Source: Candidatus Zixiibacteriota bacterium (GTDB taxonomy: Bacteria; Zixibacteria; MSB-5A5; GN15; FEB-12). Taken from it: DNA of 64,000 nt. The notes under the pieces were generated by a model. It was not told where the DNA came from, did not search any database, and saw only the letters and a program-made list of their open reading frames with translations. Shown here one piece after another: positions 18,757 to 24,340 of the stretch. The first letter of the stretch is position 1; every line of letters begins with the position of its first letter. A program made the position numbers and the translations under genes. The stretch lies in assembly GCA_040753875.1 (NCBI GenBank), contig JBFMDV010000030.1, positions 1-64,000 on the forward strand. The letters run 5' to 3'.

Positions 18757-18785
18757 TTGACAGCATTCGAGTTATGCTCTATGAT
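18757..18785 (+). promoter_or_regulatory. Strong sigma70-type promoter of the dockerin-protein gene
   Basis: TTGACA (18757-18762), 17-base spacer, TATGAT (18780-18785): a full-match -35 and five of six in the -10. Transcription should begin near 18792, leaving a leader of about 75 bases before the chosen start. This shows that the longer open frame from 18757 cannot be the coding start. Confidence 0.75.
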
Positions 18786-18867
18786 GAACTCAGTCGAGTT
18801 AGCCTCCACCAACGGAGGCCTTTCATCAGGGCATATCGGTAACAACATTAGAGCGGAGCATATGACT

Positions 18868-20169
18868 ATGAGACATTTCAAAGTCGCTCTGGTTGGGCCG
18901 CTGCTGTTTTTGTCGGTCGAAGTGGCGGTGGCATTTCCCGGTTATTTCCCAATCGTTGCAGGACAAACCGGAACTGAGCCATTCAAAATCATTGCTGCCG
19001 ATTTGAATGGCGACAACATACCTGATTTGGCAACCGCAAACTACTGGTCGGGTGATGTTACCGTCATCATGAGCGTCGGCAACTGCCAGTTCGCTAATCC
19101 GGTGAACTATGCAGTTGGCGAGCAGCCCTGGAGTCTGGTATCGGCCGATCTCGATAACGATAACGATATCGATCTGGCGGTAGCCAACCGCCAGTCCGAC
19201 GACATTTCGGTTCTTCTGAATACTGGTGGCGGTTCGTTTGAACCGGCGATGCACTACGTTGCCGGCGGTGAGCCGAATGCGCTCTGCGTGGCCGATTTTG
19301 ATAGCGACGGCTTCCAGGATATGGCCTTGGCGGATGCCGGTGCTACCTCCATTGGCGCAGTGATGGTCTATTTCAACAACGGGGACGGGACGTTCCGTTC
19401 GCCGATCTATTATTTCACTGTGCGCGGGAACAGGAGCATCGTGGCCGCGGATTTCGACGGCGACACTGATCAGGACCTGGCCGTCAGCAATGGCGGTACC
19501 GGCACGGTTGATGTCTGGGTCAACGACGGGACCGGGGCTTTTGTCAAGACGAACTCCCTGGCGGAGCCGACAGCCTACGACATTTGGGCTGCGGACTTTG
19601 ACGCTGATGGCGATGCTGATATTGCCAACATCACGGTCGGAGCGCTGTTCGTGAATGACGGTGCCGCCAATTTTGTGACTAACGCGTCGTTTTTCAGCAT
19701 GAGCGGCTTTTACCCCTGGACCGCCGATTTGGACAACGACGGAGATAACGACGTCGCGCGTCCGGGCGGCATGTATGTCTCCGTTGCACTGAGAGAGCCG
19801 TACAACGGTTATGAATTTTTGCCTCCGAGGAGCTACCTCGGCTGTGCCCAGGGAGTGGGGGATGCCGCGCCGGCTGATTTCGATGGTGACGGCGACCTGG
19901 ATTTGGCAGTGGCTAACACTTCTCAGAACTCCGCGTCGATTCTGCTGGGCACTGTTACCGGACGGTTCGTATGCGGTGATATCGACGGCACCGCTGCCAT
20001 TGACATCGGTGACCTGACCTCGGCGGTCGTGTTTATCTTCTTGAACGGGCCTGTTCCGCCGTTCTGGCCGGCGGCCGATTTTGACCGCTCTGGAATGGTC
20101 GACATCGGGGACATATCGATGATCGTGGACTACCTGTTCTTGAATGGTCCACCGCTGACTTGTCCGTAG
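18868..20169 (+). CDS. Secreted FG-GAP/VCBS-repeat protein with C-terminal dockerin
   Basis: About 433 residues. A signal peptide (MRHFKVALVGPLLF onward, cleavage near AVA) leads to six or seven calcium-binding FG-GAP/VCBS repeats, seen as recurring ADxDxDGxxDLAVAN motifs (for example ADLDNDNDIDLAVAN, ADFDGDGDLDLAVAN), which should form a beta-propeller. The last 65 residues are a type I dockerin-like pair of EF-hand loops (GDIDGTAAIDIGDLTSAV and ADFDRSGMVDIGDISMIV). GGAG lies nine bases before the ATG at 18868; an ATG at 18862 is closer. The role is probably extracellular or cell-surface attachment. No cohesin is visible in the window, and the target is unknown. Confidence 0.85.
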   Translation: MRHFKVALVGPLLFLSVEVAVAFPGYFPIVAGQTGTEPFKIIAADLNGDNIPDLATANYWSGDVTVIMSVGNCQFANPVNYAVGEQPWSLVSADLDNDNDIDLAVANRQSDDISVLLNTGGGSFEPAMHYVAGGEPNALCVADFDSDGFQDMALADAGATSIGAVMVYFNNGDGTFRSPIYYFTVRGNRSIVAADFDGDTDQDLAVSNGGTGTVDVWVNDGTGAFVKTNSLAEPTAYDIWAADFDADGDADIANITVGALFVNDGAANFVTNASFFSMSGFYPWTADLDNDGDNDVARPGGMYVSVALREPYNGYEFLPPRSYLGCAQGVGDAAPADFDGDGDLDLAVANTSQNSASILLGTVTGRFVCGDIDGTAAIDIGDLTSAVVFIFLNGPVPPFWPAADFDRSGMVDIGDISMIVDYLFLNGPPLTCP

Positions 20170-20233
20170 ATTTCCAACGAGCCGTCCGAGATGACCTTTT
20201 TGAGAGAGCTGCGTTCGCTCTCTGATTCCCCTA

Positions 20234-20262
20234 TTGCCTCGGTGCCGCCGGGAAGCTATTAA
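20234..20262 (+). promoter_or_regulatory. Promoter of the DRG-type GTPase gene, leaderless layout
   Basis: TTGCCT (20234-20239), 17-base spacer, TATTAA (20257-20262), then six bases to the ATG at 20269. No Shine-Dalgarno sequence is present. Confidence 0.5.
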
Positions 20263-20268
20263 TTCGAC

Positions 20269-21261
20269 ATGCCTGCTAATCTGCCACCACAATACTATGA
20301 GTTGGAGCGGGAGTTCCGCGCCGAGAAAGATACGAGGGAGAAACTCCGTATGGCCGAGGAGCTCCTTCGGATCATGCCCAAGCACAAGGGGACCGACAAG
20401 CTCCAGGCGGAAATGAAGGCCAAGATCTCCCTGCTCAAGAAGCAGCTTGAGGCGGGTGACAAAAAACACGGCCAGAGCCATGCGGTCAGCCATGACCATA
20501 TCGAACGAGAAGGCGCAGGACAGGTAATCCTGATTGGGGCGCCGAATTCGGGAAAGTCGTCGCTTCTGGAGGCGTTGACCCATGCCCGGCCCTTGGTAGC
20601 CGACTATCCGTATACCACACGCGAACCGATGGCCGGTATGATGACATTCGAGACTATTCAAGTACAGTTGATTGACACGCCCCCAATCGGCGAGGAACTG
20701 TTCGAGCCATACTTGCCGAATCTCGTTCGGAACGCCGACCTGGTGATGTTGGTCTGCGACGTAACCGATTCGAATATGTCCACGGGCGCGCAGCACGTGA
20801 CTGAGCGCTTGCGCGAAAAACATGTTCTGCTGAGACCGACAAGGGAAGTCTCCGAAGATGCCAGATTTTATATTAAGAAGACGGTCATTTGCGCCCACAA
20901 AGCCAACGAGGACGACAATACTTCCTGGCAGGGTGTACTTTCGGGGCGGTTTCCGGGTTTCCCAGTCGTAGCGACTTCGCTCATCGATGACGCAAGTCTG
21001 GTTTCGTTCAAGCGCGTTGTATTTGACGGACTGGAGATCATCCGTGTGTACACCAAACAGATTGGCAAGGAGGTCGCGCTCGTGGACCCGGTGATTCTGC
21101 CGGTGGGTGCCACTGTCATCGATGCGGCTACGTCGATCCATAAGGACTTTGCGGCGAAGCTGAAGGTTGCACGAATCTGGGGGAGCGGGAAATTCGAGGG
21201 GCAGCGGGTGCAGCACGATCACCAGTTGAGTGACGGCGACGTGGTGGAGTTTCATATTTGA
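20269..21261 (+). CDS. DRG/Obg-like GTPase with TGS domain
   Basis: 330 residues. A charged helical N-terminus (about 1-80) precedes a G domain with G1 GAPNSGKSS (about 90), G3 DTPPI (Asp-Thr-Pro kept, Gly replaced), and a G4 that reads CAHKANE rather than N-K-x-D. The last 75 residues form a TGS domain ending in GQRVQHDHQLSDGDVVEFHI, as in DRG and threonyl-tRNA synthetase proteins. DRG proteins with this layout are typical of archaea and eukaryotes and patchy in bacteria; a ribosome-associated role is likely. The altered G4 may change nucleotide choice. Single gene. Confidence 0.83.
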   Translation: MPANLPPQYYELEREFRAEKDTREKLRMAEELLRIMPKHKGTDKLQAEMKAKISLLKKQLEAGDKKHGQSHAVSHDHIEREGAGQVILIGAPNSGKSSLLEALTHARPLVADYPYTTREPMAGMMTFETIQVQLIDTPPIGEELFEPYLPNLVRNADLVMLVCDVTDSNMSTGAQHVTERLREKHVLLRPTREVSEDARFYIKKTVICAHKANEDDNTSWQGVLSGRFPGFPVVATSLIDDASLVSFKRVVFDGLEIIRVYTKQIGKEVALVDPVILPVGATVIDAATSIHKDFAAKLKVARIWGSGKFEGQRVQHDHQLSDGDVVEFHI

Positions 21262-21338
21262 CAGGGCTGTTCGTAGATTTGCAACAAACGAACTTGCTTA
21301 CGCGAGGCGCGTGATGACTTCACTGTGCGTCGTTCGTT

Positions 21339-21425
21339 CCGGCAGTTCTTGCTCGCCCGAGACAATCGGGTCAGATACATCGAGATAAGAAAAATCGCCC
21401 GTCGAGGGCGAGTGTGAACTGCCGG
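21339..21425. repeat. Two-tier palindromic element, unit 1 (inverted orientation)
   Basis: CCGGCAGTTC (21339-21348) pairs perfectly with GAACTGCCGG (21416-21425). Inside, after a three-base unpaired step, CTCGCCC pairs with GGGCGAG. Read on the minus strand the unpaired steps are ACA on the 5' side and CAA on the 3' side, the same as in the other units in this region, although the stem bases differ. It begins the 658-base non-coding gap after the GTPase gene. Confidence 0.7.
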
Positions 21426-21448
21426 TTCCAGACAAATCAGTCAGAGCC

Positions 21449-21557
21449 GGTCAGGTCACACGGGCCGAAGCGCCACGCTGAAGTCTGTTTCCACACTGTA
21501 CAAAACTGACAGATGCAAGTGCTGGTATCGCACAACGTCGGCCCGCAAGACCTGACC
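21449..21557. repeat. Two-tier palindromic element, unit 2
   Basis: GGTCAGGTC (21449-21457) pairs with GACCTGACC (21549-21557). After the unpaired ACA/CAA step, CGGGCCG pairs with CGGCCCG. The loop is about 70 bases. The arms recur almost exactly at 24009-24118, while the loop sequences differ. Confidence 0.8.
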
Positions 21558-21658
21558 GAACAACAAAATTGCTTTCCCTGGGGAGGGGATGTCGCGAAAT
21601 GACAGGCGAGGGGTCCGTGCCACTGACTGCTGCCACACAGCATTCCGGAACTGTAAAA

Positions 21659-21706
21659 GGCACACGTCCTCGTGTGCCGACAGTCGGCAGACCGGGAGGT
21701 CTGCCG
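21659..21706. repeat. Double hairpin cassette, copy 1
   Basis: First hairpin: GGCACACG (21659-21666), TCCT loop, CGTGTGCC. Second hairpin: CGGCAGACC (21685-21693), GGGA loop, GGTCTGCCG (21698-21706). A second copy lies at 24258-24304. The two copies differ at the loop-closing pair of the second hairpin (C-G here, G-C there), which preserves pairing. Confidence 0.8.
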
Positions 21707-21780
21707 TTTATATATTCAGCCGTCGGGGCGGGATTGCTTCGGCGAAGCGCCTCGCAACGACTCTCCTTGGACATATAAAC
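21706..21780. repeat. AT-ended inverted repeat with inner GC hairpin
   Basis: GTTTATAT (21706-21713) pairs with ATATAAAC (21773-21780). Inside are a GTCG/CGAC pairing, TTGC/GCAA and a tight central hairpin GCTTC-GGC-GAAGC. The short terminal inverted repeats give it the look of a small MITE-like insertion, but no target duplication can be shown. Confidence 0.5.
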
Positions 21781-21919
21781 AAGTTGTAGGTGGCAGGGGA
21801 CGACGGTGCCGGGTTTCTGCACTCGCCCTTAAGAAGAACCGACCAAGCTCGCTTCGGAACCCAAACCACAACCATGTTCACTCTTGACTTGCCGGTGATG
21901 AAAGGTCAGATTATCGGAG

Positions 21920-23050
21920 ATGGAACATCCCTTACACTATAACTTCAAAGATGTCATGGCGGCGCCGGCCCGCGCGCTGGCGGCGAAACAGATCGGCGTC
22001 ATGACGCTGTTTCTGTGCGGCGCGCTGATCAAGTTCGATTTCTTCTTCTACCTGGCCTACTGGATTCAGGGGGAAGATTTGGCCACCGCGTTTTCGGTCT
22101 GGGGACTGCTGCCGTTCACCGGCAATATATTCGGTAACATCGTATCGCAAATAGTGTACTACGGTGGAATCGTGGCGGCGCTGTTGGTAGTGATGTTCGG
22201 GTTTTTTGCCGTAGCCGCGATCAACATTGAGGCGGTGCGTGGCAACCATTTTTTCGGCATGTGGGGGGCGATCAAGTTTGCGTTAAGCCGGTGGAAACAG
22301 TTGCTCTTGTCCGAACTGTCGATTGCCCTGTTCGTGGCGTTTATCGTGCTTCTGTTTTTCCTGTTGGGGCTGGCAAGCCGCATTCCGATCGTGGGGGAGT
22401 GGATTTTCACTGTCTTATTCGTCATTCCGAATTTTGTCATCGCGCTTTTTAGCGTGTTTATTCTCTTCGTCTTTATTCTGACCGTGTTGCTGCTTCCGGC
22501 GGTGGCGGCGGCGGAGCGGAACGGCGAGACGTTCAATGTGATTCTCGAGACCTTTTCAACCATCATCCGCCAGCCGTTTCGGTGGGCGGGGTTTACTCTC
22601 TATGCGGTAGTTGCAGCCAAGGTCTGTAGTTTCATCTACGCCTATTTCGCTTATCGAGCGGTGCAGTTTTTAGTCTGGACCAGTTCGCTTGGTGGAGGGG
22701 ACAATTTAGAGAAGTTAGTACGCTCGGGCCTGTCGCATTTGCCGGTGCGGTCACAGATTGTTAACGAGACTTTGCGGCTGTTCCCGGGTTTGAAGTTTGG
22801 CGTGACGTTACCCTCGAGCGGTTATTTTGTGAGCCAGTCGGCGGCGGGGCATGTGATGGCGTTTATGTTGTTTCTGATCTTTGCCTCGATTCTCGGTTAT
22901 CTTCTTGCGGTCGTGGCGGCCGGTCAGGCGCGGGGGTATGTGGTGATTCGGTGTTTGAAAGACGGCCACAAGATTTCTGAGGAGCAGCCGCTGTTTTTCA
23001 AGGATGAGCATGTGAATCCGAAGGTGGAGGGGGAGGACGCGTGCGCGTAG
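21920..23050 (+). CDS. Integral membrane protein of unknown function
   Basis: 376 residues with about six or seven hydrophobic helices (near 25-45, 75-100, 130-155, 160-195, 220-245, 305-335) and long loops. A hydrophilic tail (DGHKISEEQPLFFKDEHVNP) ends the protein and should be cytoplasmic. Charged residues such as the KFDFFF and RGNHFF segments lie at helix edges. I recognise no family; it resembles DUF-type membrane proteins with a glycerophosphodiesterase-like membrane module, but this is not secure. It is flanked on the left by the repeat cluster and followed by panC after 95 bases. Confidence 0.6.
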   Translation: MEHPLHYNFKDVMAAPARALAAKQIGVMTLFLCGALIKFDFFFYLAYWIQGEDLATAFSVWGLLPFTGNIFGNIVSQIVYYGGIVAALLVVMFGFFAVAAINIEAVRGNHFFGMWGAIKFALSRWKQLLLSELSIALFVAFIVLLFFLLGLASRIPIVGEWIFTVLFVIPNFVIALFSVFILFVFILTVLLLPAVAAAERNGETFNVILETFSTIIRQPFRWAGFTLYAVVAAKVCSFIYAYFAYRAVQFLVWTSSLGGGDNLEKLVRSGLSHLPVRSQIVNETLRLFPGLKFGVTLPSSGYFVSQSAAGHVMAFMLFLIFASILGYLLAVVAAGQARGYVVIRCLKDGHKISEEQPLFFKDEHVNPKVEGEDACA

Positions 23051-23145
23051 CTGTATCACCAACATGCATTTTGACTCTGCTAAGTGAGGTGCACTTAACA
23101 GCCCTTCCTCAGGGACGATAGTTTAGCTCTGGCAGACTCATTCTC

Positions 23146-23991
23146 ATGCAAACCATCCGTGAAATCAAGCGCATACACTCTTTCTCTCGCCGCCTCGCGG
23201 CGCAGGGGATAACCATTGGGCTGGTGCCGACAATGGGGTTTCTGCATGAGGGGCATCTGTCACTCATTCGGAGAGCCAGGAAAGAGGCGGATATTGTCAT
23301 CACGACGATTTTCGTCAATCCGGCTCAGTTTGCGCCGAACGAAGACCTCGCTAAATACCCGCGCGATGAGAAAGGGGATATCCGCAAGATCAAAAGCGCC
23401 GGCGGTGATATCGTGTTCATCCCAAAAGCCGAAGAAATTTACCCGCCGGATTTTCAGACTTGGGTAACGGTCGAAGGTCTGACCAATGTACTTGAGGGGA
23501 AAGCGCGGCCGGGGCATTTCCGGGGCGTGACGACCATTGTAGCTAAACTGTTCAATATCACGCGTCCGGATGTCGCCGTGTTCGGCCAGAAGGATCTCCA
23601 GCAGGCGATCGTGCTTCGCCAGATGACACGCGATCTGGGATACTCGATCAAATATATAATCGCGCCGACTGTGAGAGAGCCCGATGGACTGGCAATGTCA
23701 TCGCGGAATAAGTACTTCGATGCAAACGGCAGGCAGGAGGCAGTCTGTTTATACCGCGCCCTTGTCACCGCAAAGCGGATGATGAGAGCGGGCGTGGTCG
23801 CAACCGCGAGGATTGAGAAGGAGATGCGGGCGGTGATTCTGGCGACCTGTACGAGTGCAAAGATCGAGTATATTGCGTTCAATGATTTCAACACTCTTGA
23901 AATGCGCAAACGGGTAGACCACGAGGTGGTCTGTTCGCTGGCAGTCCGGGTGCACGGCGTGAGGTTGATTGATAATATGAGGTTGGGGTGA
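23146..23991 (+). CDS. panC: Pantothenate synthetase
   Basis: 281 residues, normal length. It joins pantoate and beta-alanine using ATP. Present are the HIGH-type motif VPTMGFLHEGHLSLIRRA (about 27-44), TIFVNPAQFAPNEDLAKYPR, GHFRGVTTIVAKLFNI, FGQKDLQQ and the KMSKS-like MSSRNKYF. The beta-alanine-making enzyme panD is 1 kb downstream, but the two are separated by the second repeat cluster and a Nudix gene. A possible promoter is TTGACT (23071-23076) with TTAACA (23095-23100). No obvious ribosome binding site precedes the ATG. Confidence 0.96.
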   Translation: MQTIREIKRIHSFSRRLAAQGITIGLVPTMGFLHEGHLSLIRRARKEADIVITTIFVNPAQFAPNEDLAKYPRDEKGDIRKIKSAGGDIVFIPKAEEIYPPDFQTWVTVEGLTNVLEGKARPGHFRGVTTIVAKLFNITRPDVAVFGQKDLQQAIVLRQMTRDLGYSIKYIIAPTVREPDGLAMSSRNKYFDANGRQEAVCLYRALVTAKRMMRAGVVATARIEKEMRAVILATCTSAKIEYIAFNDFNTLEMRKRVDHEVVCSLAVRVHGVRLIDNMRLG

Positions 23992-24008
23992 GCGCCTGTG
24001 ATTCGAGC

Positions 24009-24118
24009 GGTCAGGTCACACGGGCCGAAGTGTTGAATAGGAGTGCGAACCTGCATGACAAGGACTTGATAGTCACACGTGTCGACAAGTTACGTTGTGG
24101 CCCGCAAGACCTGACCGA
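24009..24118. repeat. Two-tier palindromic element, unit 3
   Basis: GGTCAGGTC (24009-24017), unpaired ACA, CGGGCC, a loop of about 75 bases, GGCCCG, unpaired CAA, GACCTGACC (to 24118). The arms match unit 2 at 21449-21557 nearly base for base; the loops are not alike. Confidence 0.8.
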
Positions 24119-24144
24119 ACGGCCATGAGAGCACTTAGTGTGTA

Positions 24145-24188
24145 TCAGGTCACACCGTCCGCCTGTCGGCAGACGGCAGGACCTGACC
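24145..24188. repeat. Two-tier palindromic element, unit 4 (short)
   Basis: TCAGGTC (24145-24151), ACA, then CCGTC pairing with GACGG, then CAG and GACCTGA (24180-24186). The long loop of units 2 and 3 is reduced to about 13 bases. Confidence 0.65.
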
Positions 24189-24200
24189 GAACGGAAAGAA

Positions 24201-24245
24201 CGGTCAGGTCACAACGCCGCGAAGCGCGTCGTCAAGACCTGACCG
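24201..24245. repeat. Two-tier palindromic element, unit 5 (short)
   Basis: CGGTCAGGTC (24201-24210) pairs with GACCTGACCG (24236-24245). The unpaired ACA/CAA step is followed by an inner stem built from ACG/CGT with CGCG and a GAAG tip. This is the most compact complete unit. Confidence 0.75.
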
Positions 24246-24257
24246 ATCAGAAAGAAG

Positions 24258-24304
24258 GGCACACGTCCTCGTGTGGCACGGGCGGCAGACGGGGACGTCT
24301 GCCG
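24258..24304. repeat. Double hairpin cassette, copy 2
   Basis: CACACG-TCCT-CGTGTG (24260-24275) followed by CGGCAGACG (24283-24291), GGGA, CGTCTGCCG (24296-24304). It is the counterpart of 21659-21706, with a compensated base pair next to the GGGA loop. Confidence 0.8.
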
Positions 24305-24340
24305 TGTACTTGCTGAGCACTGGTCCGAGGAAAACAAAGT

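Follow-up and report, generated by a model that had tools for sequence, protein, structure and literature searches.

The palindromic units found between genes of this Candidatus Zixiibacteriota genome are very probably mobile DNA hairpins of the REP/RAYT type, though of a variant kind, that a cognate REP-associated tyrosine transposase (RAYT) recognises and spreads. The units form a repeat family whose hairpin structure is evident from covariation, they are dispersed between genes, they occur as inverted pairs, and they are specifically associated with a single RAYT clade. The decisive evidence for the REP reading is the presence of the cognate RAYT among the hairpins. The units themselves, when read on the other strand, consist of GTT, a stem, an internal mismatch and a hairpin, which is the anatomy of a REP. 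The initial annotation of the window, the 64,000-nucleotide stretch of DNA that was analysed, had listed a mobile palindrome and a protein-bound DNA hairpin as separate readings; both find support, merged into a single reading in which a dispersed hairpin is linked to a RAYT.

Hairpin units of the window and their shared plan

Each unit was assigned to the strand on which ACA...CAA...AAC reads, and the limits given take in its foot. Four units had been described before, with an unpaired ACA/CAA step and inner stems that change while remaining paired, and all four are found at their places with these properties. That description fell short in extent, missing a fifth unit, the near-invariant unpaired AAC and the ten pairs of the outer stem. 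The missed unit (21336–21425, minus strand) is a long-loop, GTT-footed, REP-like hairpin with a covarying arm (GGCAGTTC/GAACTGCC), an ACA/CAA internal loop and a 61-base interior, its foot, GTTCC, lying at 21336–21340. Next to it is a long-loop unit on the plus strand (21448–21561, AAC foot at 21559–21561), with arms GGTCAGGTC/GACCTGACC, the inner stem CGGGCCG/CGGCCCG and an 85-base interior. Together, the two make up an inverted, BIME-like composite at 21336–21561, with one member on each strand (GTTCC...CGAAC, 226 bp, 22-base spacer), in the gap between the TGS-domain GTPase gene and an unassigned membrane gene.

The other units (24008–24248) occupy the gap between panC and the NUDIX gene, all on the plus strand. 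Directly past the panC stop codon lies a long-loop unit with an 84-base interior and an AAC foot (24008–24120), followed by a short unit with the CAG variant of the internal loop and the inner hairpin CCGTCCGCC...GGCAGACGG, in which the base of the outer stem has decayed on the 5′ side (24142–24192), and by a second short unit with the inner hairpin ACGCCGCGAAGCGCGTCGT and a decayed foot, ATC for AAC (24201–24248). In accordance with the earlier claim, the units are more ordered than chance: the folding of each beats 200 of 200 dinucleotide shuffles (z −3.2 to −6.9), exact and one-mismatch matches to the arm number 6 in the window versus 1.2 expected, and the arm with its unpaired step gives 58 matches in the 3.29-Mb genome, one mismatch allowed, versus 11 for a reversed control.

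Other features were seen close by. A different palindrome family adjoins both unit clusters (21656–21710, GGCACACGTCCTCGTGTG; 24255–24308, GGCAGACNGGGANGTCTGCCG), and a ATTGCTTCGGCGAAGCGCCTCGCAA-type palindrome at 21733–21765 recurs beside several unit sites elsewhere in the genome (L025, L155, L161). An 809-codon open frame on the minus strand (18826–21255), antisense to the 18757–20169 frame and the TGS GTPase gene, probably arose by chance in coding DNA that is rich in GC.

The plan shared by the units was derived from 215 short copies and reads S N GTCAGGTC, ACA, an inner hairpin, CA(A/G), GACCTGAC N′ S′, AAC; arm variants that covary also exist, among them GGCAGGTC, GTCAGTTC and GTCGGGTC. 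The outer stem is ten pairs long, with free covariation at its two outermost pairs, and directly 3′ of the 3′ arm stands the unpaired AAC, GTT on the other strand, with A, A and C in 205, 202 and 198 of the 215 copies. The flanking arms pair, while ACA and CAA/CAG, each present in 205 of 215 copies, interrupt the stem as a conserved mismatch or bulge of the kind seen in group 2 REPs. The search pattern fixed the arms only, and copies were taken regardless of whether their inner parts pair; the inner stem, the two outermost pairs and the AAC could thus be tested without bias, and all three hold very strongly. Inner-stem pairs 1–6 are Watson–Crick in 76–84% of copies, where shuffling leads one to expect about one third; for the two outermost pairs the figure is 87–91%. 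An ungapped alignment of 32 copies, all from other genomes, has 95.5% of its cells paired and both-sided changes in 12 of 16 pairs. Its covariation score of 0.493 compares with 0.143 when shuffled and at most 0.151 with partners slid, and 0 of 500 shuffles reach it. All stems covary, the inner parts differ greatly in sequence and in loop length (some units have 60–85-base interiors), and drift of the inner stems out of pairing, which would have spoken against the initial annotation, is seen neither in the 215 copies nor in the alignment.

On this anatomy the terminator and CRISPR readings were rejected, in line with the initial annotation. An integron attC site was also considered and rejected: attC sites consist of RYYYAAC...GTTRRRY boxes that pair with each other, whereas in the present units AAC stands on one side only and unpaired, and the opposite flank is not conserved.

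Dispersal across the genome and the phylum

A covariance model (R1) built from other genomes only, with the window's genome excluded, finds 72 copies in the latter at E up to 0.01 among the best 150 candidates scored, so that further copies, whose absence would have spoken against the initial annotation, do exist. The model recovers three units of the window, those starting at 21336 (E = 9e-8), 24142 (E = 0.007) and 24201 (E = 2e-7); being a short model, it missed the two with 84–85-base interiors. Across 133 genomes of the phylum, a strict pattern yields 1,445 matches versus 94 for its reversed control. A search with one genome per species lists at least 100 further-flung stretches, from records that bear the names Zixibacteria, GN15, LCP-89, Calditrichota and FCB bacteria. 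The range of the repeat family spans the uncultured phylum Zixibacteria and extends to some neighbouring phyla. Copies are near-identical within one genome and different between genomes.

High copy number outside genes is a general trait of REPs, and the units share it: they avoid genes, with 93 of 114 copies in related genomes lying in intergenic DNA compared with 15% of random positions. Divergent gaps hold fewer copies than expected and most copies lie in tandem or convergent gaps; both the avoidance of genes and the rarity in divergent gaps have also been reported for REPs (PMC3733652). Location in tandem or convergent gaps would also be compatible with a structured RNA transcribed from gene ends, be it a riboregulator, an RNA–protein binding element or a terminator set, as would the strong covariation. 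We nevertheless consider a structured RNA, which the initial annotation had put forward, to be very unlikely. The units match no Rfam family, only a tRNA in the window exceeding its gathering score, and they lie in either direction with respect to the genes beside them (34 opposite, 26 same). They are not followed by a conserved T run, their inner parts are highly variable in sequence and loop length, they come as inverted pairs, and they are specifically linked to the gene of a single-strand DNA transposase.

The inverted pairs are themselves a feature of REPs, known there as BIMEs or REPINs. The geometry of the 226-bp pair of the window recurs in the same genome at five sites (L156, L157, L161–L163), and with a degenerate partner at three (L154, L155, L159). 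At most of these sites the flanks are unrelated, and homology mostly stops at GTTC...GAAC. Another genome of the phylum, G075, contains about 14 near-identical inverted pairs that are likewise dispersed. One of these, together with its outer inverted repeat, is missing from the orthologous gap of the sister species G074, a single case that could reflect loss rather than insertion. The G075 pairs (L286–L300) mostly sit inside this further inverted repeat, GGGCTTGTTGATAAAGTCC ... ATCAACAAGCCC; outer repeat and pair may move together, and the mobile unit there may be larger. Sought as within-genome empty sites, no outer repeat without a pair was found in G075 within the gap sizes searched. A search for cut sites revealed no cleavage dinucleotide beside the units, and the last base of the foot showed no clear correlation with the flanking bases.

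A cognate RAYT clade among the hairpins

The cognate RAYT gene was found by seeking RAYT homologues near the repeats. The first copy in this genome, at C26:2109–2591, has units on both sides, and its product scores 91.7 bits against the NCBIfam model for REP-associated tyrosine transposases (NF047646, cut-off 80) and matches the structure of TnpA_REP (PDB 4er8). A second copy at C25:149854–150333, with four units around it, has diverged from the first to 53% identity. A search with PF01797, whose reach the cognate gene falls below, found only four other RAYTs, and those examined have other palindromes around them. Further RAYTs of the same genome, at L031, L033 and L034 (C28, C20 and C23), stand amid other palindrome families, such as GCCGTCAGGCAGAGACGCCTGACGGCAC at L033 and CCCACCCGCAAGCGGGTGGGGCACC at L034, so that several REP-like systems coexist in this genome.

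A HUH/Y1 enzyme beside hairpins would also be encountered if the units were terminal hairpins or remnants of an IS200/IS605 insertion sequence rather than REPs, since such elements encode an enzyme of the same superfamily and end in hairpins with a 5′ guide. We regard this as extremely unlikely: the equivalog model that the protein matches is that of the REP-associated transposases, the genome has two diverged copies of the gene versus more than 70 hairpins, which is not the profile of a multicopy autonomous element, and the hairpins lie mostly away from the gene, singly or in inverted pairs.

To the C26 gene we added 25 genes from other species of the phylum that are at least 46% identical, giving a cognate clade of 26 loci (L164–L189). 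Its members carry the HUH motif and the catalytic tyrosine of a RAYT, mostly as [ST]H[VLI]H and YIHxNP. GTT-footed hairpins stand beside the gene at all 26 loci, 17 recognised by an automatic scan and nine, with variant internal loops, by eye; the scan also matches at 3 of 30 loci of another RAYT clade, and since reading by eye covered the cognate loci only, the like-for-like comparison is 17/26 versus 3/30. At several loci (L169, L183, L188), identical units stand on both sides of the gene. The arrangement of a REPtron, a cognate RAYT flanked by its repeat, is present at both copies in this genome and throughout the clade. Copy number follows the gene, with a median of 21 copies per genome where a cognate RAYT is found versus 3 elsewhere (p = 3e-6), these strict-pattern counts being lower bounds.

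Some genomes keep many copies with the cognate RAYT undetected, for example G096 (100) and G046 (62), which would fit units that are passive palindromes serving chromosome structure or binding a protein, for example one of the nucleoid, and that have a RAYT as neighbour only through chance or hitch-hiking. REPs elsewhere do bind host proteins (PMC2817692). The flanking is, however, specific to one RAYT clade (26/26 versus 3/30, with the scope of the by-eye reading given above), and the copies are near-identical within a genome while differing between genomes, which makes passive palindromes extremely improbable. As to the unit-rich genomes in which no full-length cognate RAYT was detected (G096, G045–G048, G027 and G037, with 37–100 units), the gene may have been lost or may fall in gaps of draft assemblies.

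In a tree that also includes another RAYT clade, a single branch (96/96) sets the cognate RAYTs apart. Loop type, classic or variant, does not follow clades within this tree, which indicates that it changed several times. Of the residues with which E. coli TnpA_REP contacts the GTAG foot, W94 is kept in the aligned region, while Q95, E100, H101 and R104 are mostly replaced (by M/E, R, V and variable residues). In contrast, the control clade keeps W94, H101, R104 and mostly Q95. The simplest reading of these sequence changes would be a different foot with a different set of contacts.

Probable recognition of the hairpins and relation to known systems

Read foot first, a unit presents 5′-GTT, a stem of ten pairs (S N GTCAGGTC in most), a 3+3 loop (CTG or TTG opposite TGT) and a free inner hairpin. 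What the cognate HUH-type RAYT reads on single-stranded DNA is most likely the GTT foot together with the lower stem and the internal loop. It would cut and rejoin units, either singly or as inverted pairs, thereby spreading them between genes; any influence on mRNA ends or on DNA topology would be a secondary matter. Taking E. coli TnpA_REP and IS200/IS605 as models, we infer recognition as a single strand, cleavage, and transposition by excision and insertion. For the E. coli enzyme, cleavage of single-stranded REP takes place at a CT site and strictly requires both the GTAG foot and the bulge (PMC8266576), and by this analogy the parts conserved here, foot, lower stem and internal loop, correspond to the essential ones. 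An enzyme that reads the base of the hairpin would leave the inner hairpin free to vary, as is observed.

The closest comparison is with the REP/BIME system of E. coli and its group 2 (subclass 2.2) TnpA_REP, which likewise has extragenic hairpins in many copies with a 5′ foot and an internal stem mismatch, inverted pairs, and repeats that surround a cognate HUH tyrosine transposase (PMC8266576, PMC6006769). The present units differ in their foot, GTT[CG] instead of GTAG, their 3+3 internal loop (TTG or CTG opposite TGT), their ten-pair lower stem of covarying sequence, the 60–85-base interiors of some, and the replacement of the enzyme's GTAG contacts. The foot and the replaced contacts weigh against the REP reading, as do the missing cleavage dinucleotide and the unit-rich genomes in which no cognate RAYT was detected. 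Since the GT[AG]G tetranucleotide of canonical REPs is absent, with GTT followed by a pairing G or C (215 copies), we do not file the units as canonical GTAG REPs. The initial judgement that they are not a simple REP is borne out by this absence and by the very long loops of some, but not by their architecture, dispersal, inverted doublets and cognate RAYT, which are those of REPs.

RAYTs with atypical repeats that lack GT[AG]G are already known in subclasses 2.6 and 3 (PMC6006769), and the GTT-footed units are thus a variant within the known REP/RAYT kind. RAYTs of subclass 2.6 (Bertels group 5), from Bacteroidetes, likewise have flanking structures without GT[AG]G and a guide-contact region that is not conserved, and their motif YIH[QN]NP and tail SS resemble, as far as described, the YIHxNP and WSS found here; their structures are weaker and were found by eye (PMC6006769), whereas those of the present clade are strong and conserved across the phylum. 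REPINs also spread as a unit of two inverted REPs (PMC3116915), but the two members of a pair here often come from two hairpin classes (GGCAGTTC and GTCAGGTC, or GTCAGGTC and GTCGGGTC). TIRtrons, which are RAYT-like tyrosine transposase genes flanked by long terminal inverted repeats instead of GTAG repeats, some of them repeated in the genome (PMC3733652), resemble our long-loop units in the length of their repeats. They differ in that short and long units here share one plan and one foot. A literature search with the arm sequence returned mostly oestrogen-response elements and other unrelated oligonucleotides, and no paper linking Zixibacteria to REP elements was found in a search that fell short of most subscription journals.

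Most work on REP hairpins and the domesticated transposases that go with them concerns Proteobacteria, where the foot is GTAG or GTGG. Tentatively, and with somewhat more doubt than belief, we suggest that a phylum-wide RAYT clade has re-coded REP recognition, in that a GTT foot whose next base lies in the stem and a fixed 3+3 loop may be read through different protein contacts, with the choice of cleavage site shifted (under the published guide model, GTTG would call for CA and GTTC for GA in place of CT). A phylum-wide clade whose repeats covary strongly and have another foot, and whose enzyme has changed to match in its guide-contact region, provides a natural experiment on the choice of hairpin and cut site. 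It also explains a common class of odd Zixibacteria palindromes that could be mistaken for structured RNAs.
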